A stretch of DNA of 64,000 bases from Planktothrix agardhii NIES-204 (GTDB taxonomy: Bacteria > Cyanobacteriota > Cyanobacteriia > Cyanobacteriales > Microcoleaceae). The notes under the pieces are model-generated. The model made no database searches and was not told the DNA's origin. It was given only the letters and a program-made list of their open reading frames with translations. Below are positions 35,611 through 48,685 of this stretch, one piece after another (the first letter of the stretch is position 1; each line of letters starts with the position of its first letter). The position numbers and the translations under genes are program-made. The stretch is from contig AP017991.1 in assembly GCA_003609755.1 (NCBI GenBank), positions 4,575,001 to 4,639,000 on the forward strand, given 5' to 3'.

Positions 35611-35907
35611 TTAACGGTTAATCATCAAACCCTTTATTAACTCTAGTTTTTTCATTAACCCTTCCTGATCTATCCAACCCACATAGCCACCGAATTGAAG
35701 TTCATCATCACTATCTAATACATAAACATGATGGACGTTAATAGCATTAACAAATAAATAAATTTTCCCACTTTTATCAGGAAATTTTAAATAAAGATCT
35801 CCCTTTGAAATATTATAGCTATGATATTTGAGTTCAATTCCCATAACTTCAGATATAGGGATCATCCCTTTAACTTGAGATAAATAGAGTTCTTCTGCTG
35901 ATTCCAA
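35611..35907 (-). CDS. Small unknown protein, partner of the serine hydrolase
   Basis: 98 residues, soluble, alpha/beta in pattern (GDLYLKFPDKSGKIYLFV, VHHVYVLDSDDELQFGG). I do not recognise a family. It follows the serine hydrolase gene after 6 bp on the same strand, so it is co-transcribed and possibly translationally coupled. By position it could be an inhibitor, adaptor or immunity factor for the hydrolase, which is inference only. Confidence 0.6.
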   Translation of the reverse strand: MESAEELYLSQVKGMIPISEVMGIELKYHSYNISKGDLYLKFPDKSGKIYLFVNAINVHHVYVLDSDDELQFGGYVGWIDQEGLMKKLELIKGLMINR

Positions 35908-35913
35908 ATATTG

Positions 35914-36843
35914 TTATTCATTGCTCGGTAGAAAACCATTGTCAAGTTGATTCAAAATATTATTAGTAATTAATCTAGCAGTGTGAGGACAATTCCAATA
36001 ACTATTATGGGCATCACTAGAACTCACAGCCATTGCTAAGTCATTTTGACCTAAACTTCTAGCTATTTTTTCAACCCAGTTAGCATCCTCTAATAAATAC
36101 TCATCTTCAAATTTTAGATAACTATTTTCAGCCAGATGTAAATTCGCTTTTAAAGGATAAGCCATTAAGTCGGAACCATGAATTAAATTCAGCCATCTTA
36201 AAGGCTGTTCAGAAGAATAGGAATGAGCAAATTGCTCGACTTTTTCGGGACGTACATCTAACATCGTATTAATAAATAAAATGGGCGAACCTATGAGCGT
36301 GATACTGCTCAAATTAACCTGATGTTTAAGTTTTACATCTGTCTGATTTTGTAATTCTCGAATCATAGCTCGAATAGACAAAGCTGGGTCTTTCGCTGAA
36401 AATCGATCTGAAAATAAAACATCCCATAGAATTACAGTTCCTAACGAATGGGCAACAATATGAATTTCAGAATCATTGGGGTTTTGCTTAATAAAATTAT
36501 GGAGTTGTTGAGAGATTATGTTACGAATTTCTTGACCATTATCAGAATTCATATAGGTAAAGAAATCCCCCATAAATTGAGAAAAGAAACCTTCTCTAAA
36601 CGATCGATATTTCAAAAACTCTTCACTATCACTTTTAGAATATTTCTTTTTAGCGTGTGCTAAATCTTCATCAATCCCATTCCATATTTTCCCCATATCT
36701 GTTAAGGCAGAACCCCAAAAACTAGCATAAAAATGAGGATTTTTTTCTCCCCGTTGACTAAATTCTGTTTTGATAATTTGTTGTAAATTTGATGAGTAGC
36801 AAGCATCTCTTGTGGCGACACCATGAATAAAAAATACAAGCAT
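35914..36843 (-). CDS. Alpha/beta serine hydrolase (lipase/esterase-like)
   Basis: 309 residues. MLVFFIHGVATRDA is the first strand with the oxyanion His-Gly, and IHIVAHSLGTVILWDVL at about residue 131 is the nucleophile elbow (A-H-S-L-G). Later segments SSITLIGSPILF and LNLIHGSDLMAYPL fit the acid strand, and DAHNSYW near the C-terminus could give the catalytic His. No signal peptide is seen, so it is cytoplasmic. It lies 58 bp downstream of mrr and 6 bp before a small unknown gene, inside a cluster of nuclease and ATPase genes. A role as a membrane- or lipid-attacking effector is possible but unproven. Confidence 0.7.
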   Translation of the reverse strand: MLVFFIHGVATRDACYSSNLQQIIKTEFSQRGEKNPHFYASFWGSALTDMGKIWNGIDEDLAHAKKKYSKSDSEEFLKYRSFREGFFSQFMGDFFTYMNSDNGQEIRNIISQQLHNFIKQNPNDSEIHIVAHSLGTVILWDVLFSDRFSAKDPALSIRAMIRELQNQTDVKLKHQVNLSSITLIGSPILFINTMLDVRPEKVEQFAHSYSSEQPLRWLNLIHGSDLMAYPLKANLHLAENSYLKFEDEYLLEDANWVEKIARSLGQNDLAMAVSSSDAHNSYWNCPHTARLITNNILNQLDNGFLPSNE

Positions 36844-36901: not shown

Positions 36902-37807
36902 TTATAAATGATTAAACCAATTTTGATCAATTTCAACAACTTCAATCATTTTTGTTTCGACTCCTAAATTCAAATCTTTGAGAATTTGACAAAGTTGTTC
37001 CCCATCAATTAAATCCAATACGGGCGCACCGTCACGGGTGGCTTCTTGTTTGGCTGAACTGGTAAAAGTTCCTGTGGTTAGAAATAAACCTTTATCGGTT
37101 CTTCCTACCATAGCACCTCGGAAATCTCGAATTTCAGAAGGGCCAACAGAACCCGTATAACGTTTACATTGAAAGAATACTTGAAAACTCAAAAGGGCAA
37201 TTTTTAAGACTCCAATTCCATCAATTCCTCCATCTCCTTTTCTTCCGGTTACTTCAACTTTAATAAAGCCAGATTCTCTTAAAATTCGTTGACATAATCT
37301 TTCAAAACTATCAGGAGAAATTTGTTGCAAAATTTTCAATAGTTTTTCAATCCAAATATCTGAATTAGCAGGAATTTGATCGTTATCTGAAATAGATTCT
37401 ATTGTTTCAATTGTAGGTTGTGGCAATACATTAAAATCTTGAACAGATTCAGGACTAACCTTTTCAGTTTTATTTCGTGTTGTTTGATTGACAAATCTAT
37501 TAATTTCTTTAGGATTAATAACTTGCAGATTTCTACCTTTCTCCGTGAGTGACCATACTCCTCGTCTTACACTTTCTAAAACTCCATATACTTTTAAATA
37601 AGTTCTCACCCAACCTAAACGATAGTCAATTTCTGTCTGTGGCCCTTGTTTATGTAAAATACTCTGTTGTTGTTCTGAGAAACTTTGAAGTTGACAGACT
37701 TGATCATAAATTTCTTGCACTGTTCCTGACCCTCCTAAAGATTTAAGAGCTTTAATAGTGGGTTCAAATAAATCGCTATGGGAAGGAATATTTAAGGATT
37801 GGTTCAT
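36902..37807 (-). CDS. Mrr-type restriction endonuclease
   Basis: 301 residues. The N-terminal winged-helix domain (DLFEPTIKALKSLGGSGTV, VRRGVWSLTEKG) is joined by a polar linker to the C-terminal PD-(D/E)xK nuclease: FERLCQRILRESGF, TGRKGDGGIDGIG with the catalytic Asp, and FFQCKRYTGSVG as the Q-x-K half. In Mrr enzymes this cuts modified (often methylated) DNA. It is the first gene of a minus-strand run with the serine hydrolase and small protein. Its 5' end and promoter are duplicated at 39554-39668. Confidence 0.88.
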   Translation of the reverse strand: MNQSLNIPSHSDLFEPTIKALKSLGGSGTVQEIYDQVCQLQSFSEQQQSILHKQGPQTEIDYRLGWVRTYLKVYGVLESVRRGVWSLTEKGRNLQVINPKEINRFVNQTTRNKTEKVSPESVQDFNVLPQPTIETIESISDNDQIPANSDIWIEKLLKILQQISPDSFERLCQRILRESGFIKVEVTGRKGDGGIDGIGVLKIALLSFQVFFQCKRYTGSVGPSEIRDFRGAMVGRTDKGLFLTTGTFTSSAKQEATRDGAPVLDLIDGEQLCQILKDLNLGVETKMIEVVEIDQNWFNHL

Positions 37808-37871
37808 TGTTTGAGAAGTTGCGATCGCATCAAATTACTATGTTACACTATAAGTTAGAGACATCTATCCT
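37757..37871. repeat. 115-bp direct repeat, copy 1 (mrr 5' end and divergent promoter)
   Basis: This copy contains the first 17 codons of mrr (reverse) and 64 bp of the mrr/ATPase intergenic region, including TTGCGATCGCATC and TTACACTATAAG. Copy 2 at 39554-39668 is the same length with five mismatches and no gaps by eye (about 96% identical). The two bracket the ATPase-PIN gene pair. Confidence 0.92.
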
Positions 37872-37908
37872 GAATTAGAAAAATAATTAAAATATAAAAA
37901 TATTCCTA

Positions 37909-39015
37909 ATGCTGAAGCAAATTAACTTAAAAAACTGGAAAAGTTTTAAAGAGGCAACCTTATATATTGATCCAATTACTATTTTAATTGGAACCAATTC
38001 TAGTGGCAAGTCTAATATTATTGATGCTTTGGATTTTTTAAGTCGTATTCCCGAAGCAAAATCCTTAGAATCTGCTTTAATTGGTGATAGTCATACCCCA
38101 GGAATTAGAGGGGGGTTAGAATGGGTAGTTAGAAAACCGGAAACTCAGTTTACTTTAGAAGCTGTTGTTAGTGGGAAATATAAACAGGAAGATGAACAAG
38201 TTGAATTTGATTGTCTTTATAGTATTACAGCAGAAATCGAACCTAAAATACAATTAATTAATGAATTTATAAAATTACTTAAATCCAATGATAATGATGG
38301 AATTAATAACTCATCAGAAAATACGGTTTTAGAAGTTCTCAAAAAAATATTTATTATTAACCCCATTCCTCAGAATATGAGAAACTATTCCCCCCTATCA
38401 AAAACTTTAGAACAAGATGGCTCAAATATTGCTGGAGTTTTAGCCGCCATTCCTGAACTAGAAAAAGAAAAAATAGAACAAACTTTACTGAATTATTTAT
38501 CCCAACTTCCTGAAGGAGATTTACAACGGGTTTGGGCTGAACCTGTGGGAAGATTAGGCAGTGATGCGATGTTATATTGTGAAGAGAAATGGGGTAAAAA
38601 TCACGAACCTTTATTAGTCGATGCGAGAGGAATGTCCGATGGAACATTAAGATTTTTAGCCATTTTAACCGCTTTATTAACCCGTCCCGAAGGCAGTTTA
38701 ATTGTGATTGAGGAAGTTGATAATGGTTTACATCCTTCCCGCGCTGGTTTGCTTTTGAAAATGTTAAAGGAAATAGGAAAAAAACGGAATATTGATATTT
38801 TAGTCACAACTCATAACCCGGCTTTAATGGATGAATTAACCCCGGATTTTATTCCTTTTGTCATGGTTGTTTATCGAGATCAAGATACAGGAGAAAGCCA
38901 GTTAATTCCCTTAGATGAAATTGAAAATTTACCGAAATTGATGGCTTCAGGTTCTTTAGGAAAAATCACCCAACAGGGATTATTAGAAAAAAGTTTAGCT
39001 AAACATAACGAATAG
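37909..39015 (+). CDS. RecF/SMC-like AAA (ABC-class) ATPase of an ATPase-PIN pair
   Basis: 368 residues. It opens LKQINLKNWKSFKEATLYI, the standard start of AAA_15/AAA_21 ATPases. Walker A is GTNSSGKS at residues 28-35. The C-terminal half has DARGMSDGTLRFLAIL (signature), LIVIEEVDNGLHP (Walker B with catalytic Glu) and LVTTHNPALMDEL (H-loop). The about 200-residue insertion between them is helical and charged. There is no TOPRIM domain, unlike OLD proteins. The PIN-like gene follows after 5 bp, so the pair should form a sensor ATPase with a nuclease effector. This resembles defence modules in organisation but is not one I can name. Confidence 0.85.
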   Translation: MLKQINLKNWKSFKEATLYIDPITILIGTNSSGKSNIIDALDFLSRIPEAKSLESALIGDSHTPGIRGGLEWVVRKPETQFTLEAVVSGKYKQEDEQVEFDCLYSITAEIEPKIQLINEFIKLLKSNDNDGINNSSENTVLEVLKKIFIINPIPQNMRNYSPLSKTLEQDGSNIAGVLAAIPELEKEKIEQTLLNYLSQLPEGDLQRVWAEPVGRLGSDAMLYCEEKWGKNHEPLLVDARGMSDGTLRFLAILTALLTRPEGSLIVIEEVDNGLHPSRAGLLLKMLKEIGKKRNIDILVTTHNPALMDELTPDFIPFVMVVYRDQDTGESQLIPLDEIENLPKLMASGSLGKITQQGLLEKSLAKHNE

Positions 39016-39020
39016 AATTT

Positions 39021-39530
39021 ATGATAAAAGTATTGATTTTTGATACTTCTATCCTTTGTGTTTGGTTAGGAGTTCCAGGTAAAGAAACCTGTGGTTCAAA
39101 AGAAAATTTTTGGAATAAAGCCAAAGTAGAGAAAATTTTACAACAGGAAGAAAAATTAAAAACAACGTTTGTTTTACCGTTAGCTTCTATTATTGAAACG
39201 GGAAATCATATTGCCCAATCTTCTAATCTACGATATGAAACTGCTCTAAAATTAGCAGAATTAATGAAATTAACGGCTGATAATCAAACCCCTTGGGCTG
39301 CATTTACCCAACAGTCAGAGTTATGGAATTCTGAACAAATTAAACAACTGGCGGATGAATTTCCTCAGTTAGCCACGCAAAAATTATCCCTCGGAGATGC
39401 AAGCATTAAGCGAGTTGCAGATTATTATGCAAAGTCAGGTTATGAAGTAGAAATTCTGACAGGAGATGGAGGATTAAAGTCCTATGAACCTGCAAAACCT
39501 CCCTTAATTCCTCGGCGCAAGCAAAAGTAA
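39021..39530 (+). CDS. PIN-like nuclease paired with the AAA ATPase
   Basis: 169 residues. The four acidic positions of a PIN fold can be placed: Asp8 in LIFDTSILCVWL, Glu59 in LASIIETGNHIA, Asp126 in LSLGDASIKRVAD and Asp149 in ILTGDGGLKSY. Lengths between them fit PIN-like domains somewhat larger than VapC. PIN enzymes cleave RNA, often tRNA or rRNA. It starts 5 bp after the ATPase stop and ends shortly before the second 115-bp direct repeat. No antitoxin-like gene is next to it, so control by the ATPase is likely (inference). Confidence 0.75.
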   Translation: MIKVLIFDTSILCVWLGVPGKETCGSKENFWNKAKVEKILQQEEKLKTTFVLPLASIIETGNHIAQSSNLRYETALKLAELMKLTADNQTPWAAFTQQSELWNSEQIKQLADEFPQLATQKLSLGDASIKRVADYYAKSGYEVEILTGDGGLKSYEPAKPPLIPRRKQK

Positions 39531-39553
39531 CTACTTTCCCTAAACTTGGGATA

Positions 39554-39668
39554 AGTGGGTTCAAATAAATCGCTATTGGAAGGAATATTTAAGGATTGAT
39601 TCATTGTTTTAGAAGTTGCGATCGCATCAAATTACTATGTTACACTATAAGTCACAGACATCTATCCT
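39554..39668. repeat. 115-bp direct repeat, copy 2 (truncated mrr start and promoter)
   Basis: Duplicate of 37757-37871 in the same orientation. Its reverse strand would encode the first 17 residues of Mrr before diverging and reaching a stop. Its plus-strand side leads into the OLD-like gene at 39725, so that gene may have inherited the divergent promoter of mrr. Confidence 0.92.
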
Positions 39669-39724
39669 AAAACCGAGGTAAAACGTTAAACAGTAAAAAC
39701 GATCTACAACTTTACAATAAAAAT

Positions 39725-41674
39725 ATGCACATCAAGGAAATTCAGATTAAAAATTTTAAATCTTTTCAAGATACCAAAATTCAATTAAATTCTGATATCA
39801 ATATTTTTACTGGTAAAAATAATTCCGGTAAAACAACCATTCTGGAAGTCGTTTCTCTGTGGCATGAATGCTTTAATAAATTGATTCGTCAGGCAGGAAG
39901 AAAAACTAAAAACTATAGAAAAGGCGATTACATCTTGGGGAATACTCAGGAAAAATATTTTCCTTTTGAAGAAATTCATAGTGTCTGTAATCCGAATTTT
40001 GAAGATATTTTTAATCAATGTGATAAAAATAAAAAAATAGAAATTGATGCAGAATTAGAACATGAAAATGAACAGATAAAAATAGGATTTAGAATTAGTT
40101 CATCTGGATTAAATTATGTGATTGAACTGATGGATTTTACGACTTATGACTTTGAAAAATTTAATAGATTCTTTAGAAGTTTTCCTTTCCCCATCGGATT
40201 ATATTATGCTTCTCCTGTGTTAGCTATTCGCCAACGCGAGAATTTTGCAACTAATCCTCAAATTCGGGAAGCGATTCAAATGAGAGAGTCGGCAACGGTA
40301 CTGCGTAATCGTTTATATTCTTTATATAAGCAGCAACAAGATTTATCATTATATAATAATTTTATTTCTGATTTGTCTTATATTTTGTTTAATAATCAAG
40401 AACAAATCGAGTTTTTTACTTCCAGCGATATTCAGAAAGATACTAGGGTAATTATCAATTACAAACTCAATAGTAGAGATACTGAAAAAGATATTGCTTT
40501 ATTGGGAAGTGGTACATTACAGATAATAGAAATTTTGTTAAATTTATATTATTATGAACAGAGAACTGATATGAATCTAGTTTTGCTTGATGAACCGGAT
40601 AGTCATATTCACAGGGATATTCAACAGCGTTTACTAGAAATACTGACGAGGTTTTCTAACCAAAATCAATTATTAATCACGACCTATAATGAAACCATCA
40701 TTCGGCATTCATCCCTACATTATTTATTTCATTTAGATCAAAATAGTGCTGAAAATTATTATAAACCCCTGGGTCATACTGAAATCCAGAGGTTGGGCGA
40801 GCGTTTTAAGGGTATTTATCCGATTCCGATAAATCCTATCCTCAGTTCTTTAGGAAGTCCTAATGGTTTAGACTTTATTAATGCCATTGAAGCTAATCAC
40901 TTAATTTTTGTGGAGGGTGAAGATGATGCTAGAGCAATTGATTTGCTTTTGCAAAAAAGTGTATCTCCTAGAAATACGAAAAAATATGTTTTTTTGGTAT
41001 TAAATGGAATTAACAATATTTTTAAAGAAATACTACACTATAAAACGGTTTTTTCCGCTATTAAAAATACTAGAACTCTCTGGGAAAAATCTGTTTTAAT
41101 TATAGATAGGGATTTTTTGATAGATGAAGATCGTGTAAAACTTGCTCAAAAAATGGAAGAAAAACTAAGTTTAAAAACCTATATTCCACAAGCTTATACG
41201 TTTGAAGCGATTTTGCTGACGGATTTAGATTTACTCAGTCGTTTATTAGTAAAATGGGTTAAAAATAGGTATTCCCAGGATATTGTTCAAGAAGAACTGT
41301 TGGACTCTTTGAATACTGCATATCAGAATATAAGACAGAATTTAGTAGAAAAATATTTGAATGATAACTGTCTTAAAGAAACAACGTACAGATATATAGC
41401 GATCCAAGAAAGTCTATATACAATATTCAAATATAAATTTATTAATAAAACTGATGTTGATCTCACTATTTCATGTAAGAATAATATCAATAATACTCTG
41501 AAAAGTGGAGCGTTTTTTAAACTCACTAGAAAAGAAGATGTTAAACAGATATTAGATGAATCTTTACAAGCGTATCATATTTCATTTAATATAGAAAGGG
41601 ATTTTCTGGATTTACTTAAAGCTGTAGATAGATCAGTATGGTTTGATGAGTGGGACTTTTTAAGACAACTTTGA
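39725..41674 (+). CDS. OLD-like ATPase-TOPRIM protein
   Basis: 649 residues. The ATPase begins IKEIQIKNFKSFQDTKIQL, with Walker A GKNNSGKT (30-37), a signature-like LLGSGTLQIIEILL and Walker B LVLLDEPDSHIH. A TOPRIM-like nuclease domain follows from about residue 395, with LIFVEGEDDARAIDLL (catalytic Glu and Asp pair) and SVLIIDRDFL (D-x-D). The C-terminal about 200 residues are unfamiliar. The normal H-loop His is Tyr here (LLITTYNETI). OLD nucleases cleave DNA and act in anti-phage defence. It stands alone downstream of the second 115-bp repeat. Confidence 0.83.
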   Translation: MHIKEIQIKNFKSFQDTKIQLNSDINIFTGKNNSGKTTILEVVSLWHECFNKLIRQAGRKTKNYRKGDYILGNTQEKYFPFEEIHSVCNPNFEDIFNQCDKNKKIEIDAELEHENEQIKIGFRISSSGLNYVIELMDFTTYDFEKFNRFFRSFPFPIGLYYASPVLAIRQRENFATNPQIREAIQMRESATVLRNRLYSLYKQQQDLSLYNNFISDLSYILFNNQEQIEFFTSSDIQKDTRVIINYKLNSRDTEKDIALLGSGTLQIIEILLNLYYYEQRTDMNLVLLDEPDSHIHRDIQQRLLEILTRFSNQNQLLITTYNETIIRHSSLHYLFHLDQNSAENYYKPLGHTEIQRLGERFKGIYPIPINPILSSLGSPNGLDFINAIEANHLIFVEGEDDARAIDLLLQKSVSPRNTKKYVFLVLNGINNIFKEILHYKTVFSAIKNTRTLWEKSVLIIDRDFLIDEDRVKLAQKMEEKLSLKTYIPQAYTFEAILLTDLDLLSRLLVKWVKNRYSQDIVQEELLDSLNTAYQNIRQNLVEKYLNDNCLKETTYRYIAIQESLYTIFKYKFINKTDVDLTISCKNNINNTLKSGAFFKLTRKEDVKQILDESLQAYHISFNIERDFLDLLKAVDRSVWFDEWDFLRQL

Positions 41675-45719: not shown

Positions 45720-45950
45720 ATGGCTATGTCTTCCATAGAAATTACACAGGCAATTTCACAAATTTCGGAATTATTTGATTTAGCTTTAAATGGAGAAGAA
45801 ATTATTATTACAGAAAATAAAAAACCTTTGTTGAAATTGGTTTTATTTCGGCAAAAACAATCTCAACGTCCGGCTTTATTTGGAACAGATAAAGGAATTA
45901 TTTCTATTACTGATGATTTTGATGATCCTTTAGAAGAATTTCAAGATTAG
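45720..45950 (+). CDS. Type II antitoxin (Phd/YefM-like)
   Basis: 76 residues. The N-terminal half (EITQAISQISELFDLALN, then GEEIIITENKKPLLKLV) is the Phd/YefM DNA-binding fold, and the acidic C-terminus (ITDDFDDPLEEFQD) is the usual toxin-neutralising tail. The toxin gene follows after 2 bp, so the two are coupled. The antitoxin would repress its own promoter; TATAATGGG lies about 30 bp upstream. Confidence 0.88.
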   Translation: MAMSSIEITQAISQISELFDLALNGEEIIITENKKPLLKLVLFRQKQSQRPALFGTDKGIISITDDFDDPLEEFQD

Positions 45951-45952
45951 AA

Positions 45953-46339
45953 ATGCAAGTTTTATTAGATACTCATGCACTGATTTGGTTTTTCTCAGGG
46001 AATGAAAAACTCAATGGGACGGCGCGAAATTTAATTGAAGATATAAACAACATCAAATATATTAGTGTGGCAAGCGTTTGGGAGATGGCAATTAAGCAAA
46101 GTCAAGGAAAACTAACTTTATCGGTATCATTAGAGCACTATATAGCAGAAAAACTCCAGCTAGAAGATTTTAATTTACTACAAATTAAACTGAGTCATTT
46201 AAACTTGGTTTGTCAATTACCTTTTTATCATAAAGATCCCTTTGATCGATTGTTAATTGCACAAAGTATCGTTGAAAATATTTATATTATTAGTCAAGAT
46301 TCTATATTTAATTTATACCCAATTCACAGAATAGAGTAA
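45953..46339 (+). CDS. PIN-domain toxin (VapC-like)
   Basis: 128 residues, standard for the family. VLLDTHALIWFF holds the first Asp, SVASVWEMAIK the Glu, and DPFDRLLIAQSI the next Asp pair; SQDSIF near the end carries the fourth acidic position. It is an RNase toxin neutralised by the protein encoded 2 bp upstream. It is well preserved, unlike the orphan antitoxin at 17870. Confidence 0.92.
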   Translation: MQVLLDTHALIWFFSGNEKLNGTARNLIEDINNIKYISVASVWEMAIKQSQGKLTLSVSLEHYIAEKLQLEDFNLLQIKLSHLNLVCQLPFYHKDPFDRLLIAQSIVENIYIISQDSIFNLYPIHRIE

Positions 46340-46651
46340 GTGTTTGTGCATAGTGATCGCTCCGTTTCATTCTACTCTTATTTCTAAGTAGAAGTACGGG
46401 AGATCGGATTAATTTAACCACCAGAAACCCTCAGAAACCGGGTTTCTTCAACTATCTTTTGATGATTCAACAAAGCTGATGACAGAAACCCGGTTTCTGC
46501 CTTAAAAACCTTTATAAGTGGGTTTCCTGGCGTTAGTGGGACTAGGACTATTTAGTTGACTTGTACCACACACCGACTAAAATACTACTTTAACGATTAT
46601 AATTAACCTGGGATTGCTATATTTTTGACATCAACTCAAAAAATCCTGAAT
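46340..46651. other. Intergenic region with paired AGAAACC palindromes
   Basis: 312 bp before the kinase gene. It holds two palindromes, AGAAACCGGGTTTCT (46433-46447) and AGAAACCCGGTTTCT (46484-46498), 36 bp apart, preceded by another AGAAACC half. Similar words occur widely in cyanobacterial spacers. I see no gene and no certain promoter. Confidence 0.6.
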
Positions 46652-48685
46652 ATGAATATCTATTGCACTCGTCCCGGTTGCCCTAACCCTCATAACCATT
46701 TCCCCGACTTCCAATATAATATAACCCCAGAAAGGCAACTGTTTTGTCGTACTTGTGGGATGCCCTTAATCTTAACTGCAAAGGGACGACATTATCAACC
46801 CTTCCAAGCCTTGGGAAAAGGAGGATTTGGAGCCACTTTTGTATCCGTTGATTTAGATTCAATTAATCAACGGTACTGTGTAGTAAAGCGATTAGAAATT
46901 CAACCGCGTTACACACCGAAAGAGGTTGAAGGTATTAAAAAAGCTTTTGAACGGGAAGCTAAAGCTTTGGCAGAATTACATGGAAATCACCTGCAAATTC
47001 CTGACCTCTACGATTATTTTATATTGAGAGCACCCCAACTTAATTCCTATATTTCACAAGATTGCAATTATTTAGTTCAGCAATATATTAAAGGTCAAAA
47101 TTTAAGTCAGGAATTAGAGAAACAAGGTCGTTTTTCAGAAACCCAGATTTTAGAAATCTTGGAGCAAATTTTACCGACATTAGAGTTTATTCACAATCAA
47201 AAACTAATTCACCGGGATATTAAACCGAGTAATATTATTCGCCGTCAGGATAATCAAAAGCTTTATTTAATTGATTTTGGTGCAGTTAAACAAGTCACCC
47301 GAGGAGTAATATCTCCAGAAAAATCTCTAGTGTTTGGGTGTGAGGGATATGCGCCACCAGAACAAAAACCTGGACAACAAGTTTATCCATCCAGTGATTT
47401 ATACGCACTGGCGGCTTCTTGTGTTCAATTACTGACTAATCAACATCCACAAAATTTACGCGATACTTATACTCTCAAATGGAATTGGAGATCTATATCT
47501 CCTGGCGTTAATCAGGATTTAGCTAATATTTTAGATAAAATGCTCAAACCTGATCCTAGTCATCGGTTTCAGTCGGCAAGGGATGTGATAACTGCTCTAA
47601 ATAATAAAAATCAGGCTCCAACACCTAATGGTTATTCTAGGAATAAGAATGCTAAGACAACAAGAATTATCAGTCAATCCCAACCTCGAACTTTATTAAT
47701 TTTAGCAATTGTTTTAACAATTATTGTAATTGTAATTACTCAAATAACACCGCCACCCACAACAACATCCCCCAACCCCGCAGCCCAAATTTCCTGGCAA
47801 AACCCCACCCTGGTTTCGAGTCTCAACGGACATTCAGATGATGTCGAGTTTGTAGCCTTCAGTCCCGATGGTCGGACGTTAGCCAGTGGGAGTTCGGACA
47901 CGACGATTAAATTGTGGGATGTGCAGAGCCAAGAGCAAATTGCTACTCTCACCGGACATTCAGATGATGTCGAGTTTGTAGCCTTCAGTCCCGATGGTCG
48001 GACATTAGCCAGTGGGAGTTCGGACAAGACGATTAAATTGTGGGATGTGCAGAGCCAACGGCAAATTGCTACTCTCACCGGACATTCAGATGTAGTCTAT
48101 TCTGTAGCCTTCAGTCCCGATGGTCGGACATTAGCCAGTGGGAGTTCGGACACGACGATTAAATTGTGGGATGTACACAGCCAAGGGGAAATTGCTACTC
48201 TCACCGGACATTCATTGTATATCAACTCTGTAGCCTTCAGTCCCGATGGTCGGACATTAGCCAGTGGGAGTTGGGACACGACGATTAAATTGTGGGATGT
48301 ACACAGCCAAGGGGAAATTGCTACTCTCACCGGACATTCAGATTTTGTCAGGTCTGTAGCCTTCAGTCCCGATGGTCGGACATTAGCCAGTGGGAGTGAT
48401 GACACGACGATTAAATTGTGGGATGTGCAGGGCCAAGGGCAAATTGCTACTCTCACCGGACATTCACATTTTGTCAGGTCTGTAGCCTTCAGTCCCGATG
48501 GTCGGACATTAGCCAGTGGGAGTTTGGACACGACGATTAAATTGTGGGATGTGCAGAGCCAAGGGCAAATTGCCACTCTCACCGGACATTCAGATGTAGT
48601 CTATTCTGTAGCCTTCAGTCCCGATGGTCGGACATTAGCCAGTGGGAGTTGGGACACCACGATTAAATTGTGGAAAAGACAGTAG
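46652..48685 (+). CDS. Ser/Thr protein kinase with seven-blade WD40 propeller
   Basis: 677 residues from the ATG at 46652 (the frame opens at a TTG 27 bp earlier). A Cys4 zinc ribbon (CTRPGCPNPHNHF, FCRTCG) precedes the kinase domain: LGKGGFGATFVSV, the Lys in VVKRLE, the catalytic loop IHRDIKPSNII and IDFGAVKQV. A membrane helix (LLILAIVLTIIVIVIT, near 345-360) places the C-terminal propeller outside. Seven WD40 repeats of exactly 42 residues are nearly identical except at a few positions per blade. This is a signalling kinase with a recently homogenised sensor. Confidence 0.93.
   Translation: MNIYCTRPGCPNPHNHFPDFQYNITPERQLFCRTCGMPLILTAKGRHYQPFQALGKGGFGATFVSVDLDSINQRYCVVKRLEIQPRYTPKEVEGIKKAFEREAKALAELHGNHLQIPDLYDYFILRAPQLNSYISQDCNYLVQQYIKGQNLSQELEKQGRFSETQILEILEQILPTLEFIHNQKLIHRDIKPSNIIRRQDNQKLYLIDFGAVKQVTRGVISPEKSLVFGCEGYAPPEQKPGQQVYPSSDLYALAASCVQLLTNQHPQNLRDTYTLKWNWRSISPGVNQDLANILDKMLKPDPSHRFQSARDVITALNNKNQAPTPNGYSRNKNAKTTRIISQSQPRTLLILAIVLTIIVIVITQITPPPTTTSPNPAAQISWQNPTLVSSLNGHSDDVEFVAFSPDGRTLASGSSDTTIKLWDVQSQEQIATLTGHSDDVEFVAFSPDGRTLASGSSDKTIKLWDVQSQRQIATLTGHSDVVYSVAFSPDGRTLASGSSDTTIKLWDVHSQGEIATLTGHSLYINSVAFSPDGRTLASGSWDTTIKLWDVHSQGEIATLTGHSDFVRSVAFSPDGRTLASGSDDTTIKLWDVQGQGQIATLTGHSHFVRSVAFSPDGRTLASGSLDTTIKLWDVQSQGQIATLTGHSDVVYSVAFSPDGRTLASGSWDTTIKLWKRQ
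47804..48685 (+). repeat. Seven tandem 126-bp coding repeats (WD40 blades)
   Basis: GGACATT recurs at 47828, 47954, 48080, 48206, 48332, 48458 and 48584, exactly 126 bp apart. Most of each unit is identical at the DNA level. Differences cluster in two short windows: after GHS (DDVEFV, DVVYSV, LYINSV, DFVRSV, HFVRSV) and in SGSxDxT. The antisense ORFs here are shadows of this array. Confidence 0.95.

Follow-up and report, generated by a model that had tools for sequence, protein, structure and literature searches.

In a 64,000-nucleotide stretch of the Planktothrix agardhii NIES-204 genome (assembly GCA_003609755.1; contig AP017991.1, positions 4,575,001 to 4,639,000 of the forward strand; referred to here as the window, with its first letter as position 1), two adjacent genes encode an ABC ATPase and a PIN-fold protein that probably constitute a two-gene abortive-infection module. 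Gene A (37909 to 39015, plus strand; 368 amino acids [aa]) was identified as an OLD/RecF-type ABC ATPase on the basis of its open reading frame (ORF), its Pfam and PADLOC matches, and its motifs. Gene B (39021 to 39530, plus strand; 169 aa) was identified as a PIN-fold putative endoribonuclease on the basis of its ORF, its PADLOC matches, the Pfam matches of its relatives, and a structural model. The genes are codirectional and separated by 5 bp, the spacing given in an earlier prediction made from the sequence alone (the original prediction), which had read them as an undescribed defense module. A putative role in defense is likely; by its sequence matches, however, the pair belongs to a family that is already catalogued.

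Membership in a catalogued candidate family

The best PADLOC model for A was PDC-M07A (PDLC04391; E value, 9e-163; 540 bits), and the next match from another family was HEC-01A (5e-43). For B, the best model was PDC-M07B (PDLC04394; 2.4e-51), as were all six models at E values of ≤1. The two genes are also adjacent, both in the window and at all 85 loci of relatives described below. On these matches, the pair is the phage-defense candidate (PDC) PDC-M07A/B (multi-gene 07) of PADLOC-DB 2.0.0; it differs from most of that family in that the A protein of the window has about 60 residues fewer in a variable insert. PDCs are candidates from "guilt-by-embedding," most of which await validation (PMC12988326, citing a 2024 preprint by Payne et al.; the definition is also touched on in PMC11514479). 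Our literature search found no paper naming PDC-M07 and no experimental test of the pair. In a 2026 study, pairs of an OLD-ABC ATPase with an HNH, restriction endonuclease, or PIN nuclease were described from BREX and related loci of 594 taxa, and such modules were proposed as a PARIS-like backup layer (PMC12839542). Given this report and the PADLOC match, the kind of system has been described, and this locus belongs to a family already catalogued. The novelty claimed in the original prediction was therefore not sustained, although what exists (i.e., a candidate entry and a description of the general kind) goes only part of the way toward a named system.

The pair shares its ATPase/PIN composition with the OLD-ABC plus PIN endoribonuclease modules of BREX loci, and three relatives (L052, L102, and L103) lie between pglX and pglZ. 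The window pair, in contrast, is outside any BREX locus, and the study pools the HNH, restriction endonuclease, and PIN partners. In PARIS, the tRNA-cutting effector AriB is held by AriA until Ocr or a similar phage protein binds (PMC12409363). The window pair is similar in combining an ABC ATPase with a separate small effector nuclease, and A matches the AriA model (7e-34). It differs in that A is much nearer to PDC-M07A than to AriA and that the effector is a PIN protein by fold rather than a TOPRIM protein; no AriB model was among the PADLOC matches of B. Septu (PtuAB) has an HNH partner, PtuB, whereas B had no HNH match in the Pfam or PADLOC scans and has a PIN fold instead. Regarding MADS, A scored 85.7 bits against the NCBIfam MAD3 model NF047739, for which the cutoff is 420. 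VapBC modules share the VapC-like PIN fold, but a small VapB-like partner is absent here and the upstream gene encodes a 368-aa ABC ATPase. Of the DefensePredictor PIN systems, DS-3 is a single protein and DS-5 pairs with another partner (PMC13092281). The available part of PMC10853773 contained nothing on the pair.

Sequence features of the ATPase

A matched AAA_21 (6e-33), AAA_15 (1.5e-21), and SMC_N (4e-15), and none of its eight Pfam matches (E value, ≤1) was a nuclease or TOPRIM model. The alignment placed a Walker A motif (GTNSSGKS; residues 28 to 35) at 37990 to 38013, the ABC signature core S243-D244-G245 at 38635 to 38643, the Walker B region through D271 (LIVIEEVD) at 38698 to 38721, and the H-loop His302 at 38812 to 38814. 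Across 115 aligned A proteins, G28, G33, K34, and S35 were conserved in 112 rows (the remaining three were gapped there), and S243-D244-G245, E268, H275, and H302 were conserved in all rows. Residue 269 was Glu in 106 rows, Asp in 8, and Lys in 1, and residue 271 was Asp in 113 and Glu in 2. This sequence evidence places A, which has the ABC/SMC motifs and no nuclease domain, as originally predicted, among the RecF/OLD/AAA_21-type ABC ATPases.

A has a length-variable insert site at residues 112 to 147 (38242 to 38349, by alignment). Between these two positions there are 34 residues in the window protein, compared with a median of 89 (range, 25 to 143) in the 115 rows. Within Planktothrix, the short 368-aa form is common to G000, G255, and G262, and the long copies (G387 and G157) carry about 60 extra residues at this site. 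The ratios of nonsynonymous to synonymous substitution rates (dN/dS) among the Planktothrix copies were 0.07 to 0.19 for A and 0.02 to 0.18 for B; for A, they were 0.07 to 0.10 among the three short copies versus 0.17 between the two long ones. Judged by these sequence comparisons, the short form is constrained at least as strongly as the long form.

The PIN fold of the partner protein

Pfam did not call a PIN domain on the window's own B, for which the sole match was T_hemolysin (0.0072, under the cutoff of that family). Among 18 relatives of B, weak matches were obtained to PIN_12 in seven (best, 2.5e-4), PIN_4 in three, and PIN in three. NCBIfam had no family for B, and a sequence search against the PDB returned nothing significant (three rows; best E value, 0.48). 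The fold was instead assigned from an AlphaFold2 model (predicted local distance difference test score, 92.3; predicted template modeling score, 0.85). Toxin-antitoxin or PIN-type chains occupied ranks 1 to 23 among the 50 structural matches listed; the nearest solved chains were mostly VapC-type toxins, and the top one was titled a sarcin-ricin-loop cutter. The archaeal entries among the top matches are presumably PIN proteins as well. The modeled fold of B is thus a VapC-like PIN fold, and B is a putative RNase; the absence of a PIN fold, which would have counted against the original prediction, is excluded.

Alignment and model also support the four PIN-type acids that had been proposed, i.e., Asp8 (39042 to 39044; directly past strand 1, a putative catalytic acid), Glu59 (39195 to 39197; within an ETGNHIAQ motif), Asp126 (39396 to 39398), and Asp149 (39465 to 39467). 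All 53 rows of one alignment (A2) had these four residues, and 111 of 115 rows of a larger one retained all four, the exceptions being three shortened ORFs (L062, L066, and L034) and a frameshifted copy (L033).

Linkage and distribution of the two genes

A immediately preceded B, in the same orientation, at 30 of 30 loci in cyanobacterial genomes (the window's own included) and at 85 of 85 loci of relatives, which removes the concern that homologs might rarely be adjacent. Of the 85 loci, 80 are from genomes (those ranking best among 343 relatives), four are from plasmid records (of nine found), and one is from a viral contig; the two sets overlap, with some loci taken from the same genomes. 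The commonest arrangement was a 4-bp overlap (31 of 85 loci), and the larger gaps (156 and 236 bp in the 85-locus set and 219 bp in the 30-locus set) reflect shortened start calls for B (L062, L066, and L034). Distances among A proteins and among B proteins were correlated (r = 0.85 for 111 pairs, against a maximum of 0.19 in 500 shuffles), which, as a sequence comparison, shows shared descent and not contact.

A search for the B family gave matches in 35 of the 386 cyanobacterial genomes and not in any of 14 control genomes; A (E value, ≤1e-60) was matched in 37 of 373 cyanobacterial genomes. Nine A places lacked an intact adjoining B match. Four of these were inspected (i.e., all but G087, G103, G193, G346, and G262): B was absent from the 1.5 kb downstream of A at three (L169, L170, and L179) and was broken beside A in G320. 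The G087 place carries an internal stop. Conversely, the B places without an A match were at a contig edge (G078), cut at the N terminus (G278), or present only as frameshifted pieces (G116), and a weak further B match was found in G149 (32 positions; 1.4e-4). The linkage of A and B is obligate. The decayed G320 copy (L187; G320:C213, around 2554 to 2914) contains residues 327 to 363 of A three times over, the repeats being spaced at 125 bp and differing in frame, and a frameshifted B lies behind them.

The pair had no match in the phage collection, one copy among viral contigs (L115, an IMG/VR contig), and copies in nine plasmid records. One of the latter, the 9.1-kb mobilizable Acinetobacter plasmid p10FS3-1-10 (L119), carries a diverged pair adjoining a RelE/ParE-type pair and an SMR efflux gene. 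In a tree of 82 A proteins, all of the cyanobacterial rows fell on one side of a branch (Shimodaira-Hasegawa-like approximate likelihood ratio test support, 94), and the cyanobacterial copies may therefore descend from one arrival. Pseudomonadota required seven changes and Thermodesulfobacteriota five on this tree, which was built by a quick method with a midpoint root and some long branches, so that more than one change is not proof of transfer.

Embedding in restriction and BREX operons

We grouped the 993 neighboring genes of the 85 loci by similarity and scanned the recurrent and adjacent ones. Defense genes were present in the fetched stretch at 21 of 47 noncyanobacterial loci (type I restriction-modification [RM], 13; BREX, 5; SNF2-helicase, 3) and within 200 bp of the pair at 14 of 47; these counts are descriptive rather than a test, because the scanned representatives were picked for recurrence, and related genomes among them (three Anoxybacillus, two Thiothrix, and two Chlorobiaceae) are not independent. 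They omit cases with Schlafen-like genes only (L066 from an initial 22 and L112 from an initial 15; at L112, hsdM is 2.1 kb away), and at six of the 21 loci (L059, L076, L084, L088, L100, and L108) all RM or BREX genes are >1 kb distant. A PglX-like gene 114 bp upstream of the pair at L096 is outside the tally. In this sense, the defense-rich context that had been predicted is supported.

The closest arrangements place the pair within operons. The order pglX-A-B-pglZ, with genes overlapping or ≤16 bp apart, was found at L052 and L103, and L102 has one extra gene before pglZ. The orders hsdM-A-B-hsdS (three Anoxybacillus loci; L097, L098, and L107), A-B-hsdR (two Thiothrix loci; L069 and L099), and hsdM-hsdS-A-B-hsdR (a Vibrio campbellii plasmid; L116) were also observed. 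PrrC-like tRNA nucleases are likewise part of the layout of type I restriction loci, a position resembling that of the pair inside the hsd operons of Vibrio, Anoxybacillus, and Thiothrix (L099). PrrC carries its own NTPase. The pair differs in having a separate ATPase and nuclease and in that the nuclease is a PIN protein, PrrC being a HEPN protein (PMC12409363). In the two Thiothrix genomes, a 210-aa gene matching PDC-S10 lies directly upstream of A (L069, 301 to 930; L099, 4349 to 4978).

Four loci were initially labeled Hma from similarity to one representative. PADLOC supported HmaA only at L090 (E value, 0); the label was rejected for L073 and L081, which have SNF2/HKD-type helicases (best, C3a139), and was set aside for the cyanobacterial locus L045, where the gene is 5.5 kb from the pair. 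For 42 of the 47 loci, PADLOC matches were tallied by family for the nearest genes (n = 79) and for genes >6 kb away (n = 73). Defense matches occurred in both sets (165 families near and 92 far, of which the first 25 are listed), and we do not use this tally as proof of enrichment.

A hotspot beside gcvP in Planktothrix

Ten genomes of the genus, including that of the window, were searched, and the stretches beside gcvP were compared in eight (all but G262 and G388). The order in the window is hydrolase-mrr-repeat-A-B-repeat-OLD-gcvP. G255, labeled as the same species, has a doubled hydrolase gene followed by mrr-repeat-A-B, 1.6 kb including a transposase gene, and gcvP. G387 has hydrolase-repeat-A-B-gcvP; G390 has hydrolase-repeat-OLD-gcvP, with an OLD-like gene 99% identical to that of the window and with neither the pair nor mrr. 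In G386, hydrolase-mrr is followed by a truncated repeat joined to a 73-bp piece from the 3' part of A and then by gcvP, a junction that is, from its sequence, a deletion scar. None of these modules was in the stretch fetched beside gcvP in G389, G391, or G157; in G157, hydrolase-mrr-repeat-A-B is located on a different contig. The region ahead of gcvP is a hotspot where the pair has been gained and lost, and carriage as a cassette, as originally proposed, is borne out by this presence and absence among relatives.

In the window, the pair is flanked, as predicted, by an Mrr-type (type IV) restriction endonuclease gene (36902 to 37807, minus strand; Mrr_cat, 2e-30) and an OLD-like ATPase gene (39725 to 41674, plus strand; 649 aa; AAA_15, 4e-20) with a weak DUF3226 tail (8.5e-4); the OLD-like protein was not a confident member of any single PADLOC system. 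Genes on the minus strand for a 98-aa protein (35611 to 35907) and an alpha/beta-hydrolase-like protein (35914 to 36843) recur across the hotspot and matched no PADLOC model. A 118-bp direct repeat (95% identity) flanks the pair. Copy 1 (37757 to 37874) consists of the first 51 bp of mrr and the region upstream of it, and copy 2 (39554 to 39671), which lies between B and the OLD-like gene, is what remains of an mrr 5' end. Given this origin, we rejected our first reading of the repeat, namely, a target-site duplication or a site for a recombinase. Also against that reading, related copies in other genomes precede mrr, the pair, or the OLD-like gene, and G390, G387, and G262 share a single shortened 90-bp form; moreover, ARAGORN found no tRNA in the window, and there was no integrase-like ORF between the hydrolase gene and gcvP. 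The flanking repeat would fit recombination between hotspot variants.

Farther along the window, 45720 to 46339 hold a probable VapBC-type pair, i.e., a 76-aa ORF and, after 2 bp, a toxin gene whose 128-aa product matches Pfam PIN (4.6e-12) and which is 99.7% identical to its counterpart in Planktothrix rubescens PCC7821 (L037). By eye, the translation of 46625 to 48685 resembles a Ser/Thr kinase, with near-identical repeats of the WD40 type after the kinase-like part.

Proposed mechanism and alternatives

We propose that A would hold B inactive and sense infection through its ATPase head and probably also through the length-variable insert. Once triggered, A would release or activate B, which, as a VapC-like PIN endoribonuclease, would cut an essential RNA (tRNA or rRNA) and stop both cell and phage. 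The action would resemble that of AriA and AriB in PARIS, with a PIN RNase replacing the TOPRIM tRNase, and the pair would spread as a cassette that elsewhere is often inserted, as a second line, in operons for restriction or BREX. The PIN fold, obligate pairing, mobility, and context of relatives make this the reading that we favor, with somewhat better than even confidence. Two observations weigh against it. Type I RM, BREX, or SNF2-helicase genes were found at only 1 of 38 cyanobacterial loci (L045, 5.5 kb away); together with the branch separation in the A tree, this means that the embedding evidence comes from sister clades and not from the window's own. In addition, the insert of the window A is about 60 residues shorter than in most relatives, so that sensing might be changed or absent, yet the dN/dS of A stays low.

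A more specific version is an "anti-anti-restriction" trap, in which A would recognize the phage proteins (or the damage) by which type I restriction and BREX are put out of action, as PARIS does with Ocr, and would then free the PIN RNase; the hypervariable insert (25 to 143 residues) would be the trigger reader, and the Planktothrix version would have been trimmed, retargeted, and made stand-alone. Type I RM is inhibited by Ocr. BREX is inhibited by Ocr as well (PMC12839542), and insertion into these two kinds of loci makes the trap attractive for the embedded relatives and less so for the stand-alone cyanobacterial copies; we regard it as tentative.

A toxin-antitoxin or plasmid-addiction module, with B as a VapC-like toxin, A as an unusual antitoxin, and defense incidental to postsegregational killing, is unlikely. 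The fold of B, the plasmid copies, and the finding that no demonstrably intact B was without A, whereas A occurs alone, would all suit it, but A is a complete ABC ATPase that retains its catalytic motifs rather than a small DNA-binding antitoxin, and insertion between pglX and pglZ or among hsd genes points to cooperation with defense. We give still less credence to a DNA-directed complex of the Septu (PtuAB) or OLD type, in which A would bind or scan DNA and B would cut phage DNA: the resemblance of A to RecF, SMC, and PtuA ATPases and the presence of relatives among DNA modification systems favor it, but most of the solved structures nearest to B are VapC-type toxins, which cut RNA (PMC12409363), and the top one is titled a sarcin-ricin-loop cutter. 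A housekeeping pair for DNA repair or RNA processing, suggested by the RecF/SMC similarity of A and by the possibly single arrival in cyanobacteria, is highly improbable in view of the patchy occurrence of B, the presence and absence between close strains with the G386 scar, the carriage on plasmids, and the neighboring defense genes.

With the abortive-infection reading, a catalogued candidate gains a concrete mechanism from a PIN effector recognized by fold, an obligate ATPase partner, and repeated insertion in modification-based defense operons, and the variable insert of A becomes a testable sensor region. If confirmed, RNA cutting by a PIN protein would join the ATPase-plus-nuclease defense pairs (TOPRIM in PARIS and HNH in Septu), and the stretch beside gcvP would be a defense hotspot that exchanges modules among close Planktothrix strains.
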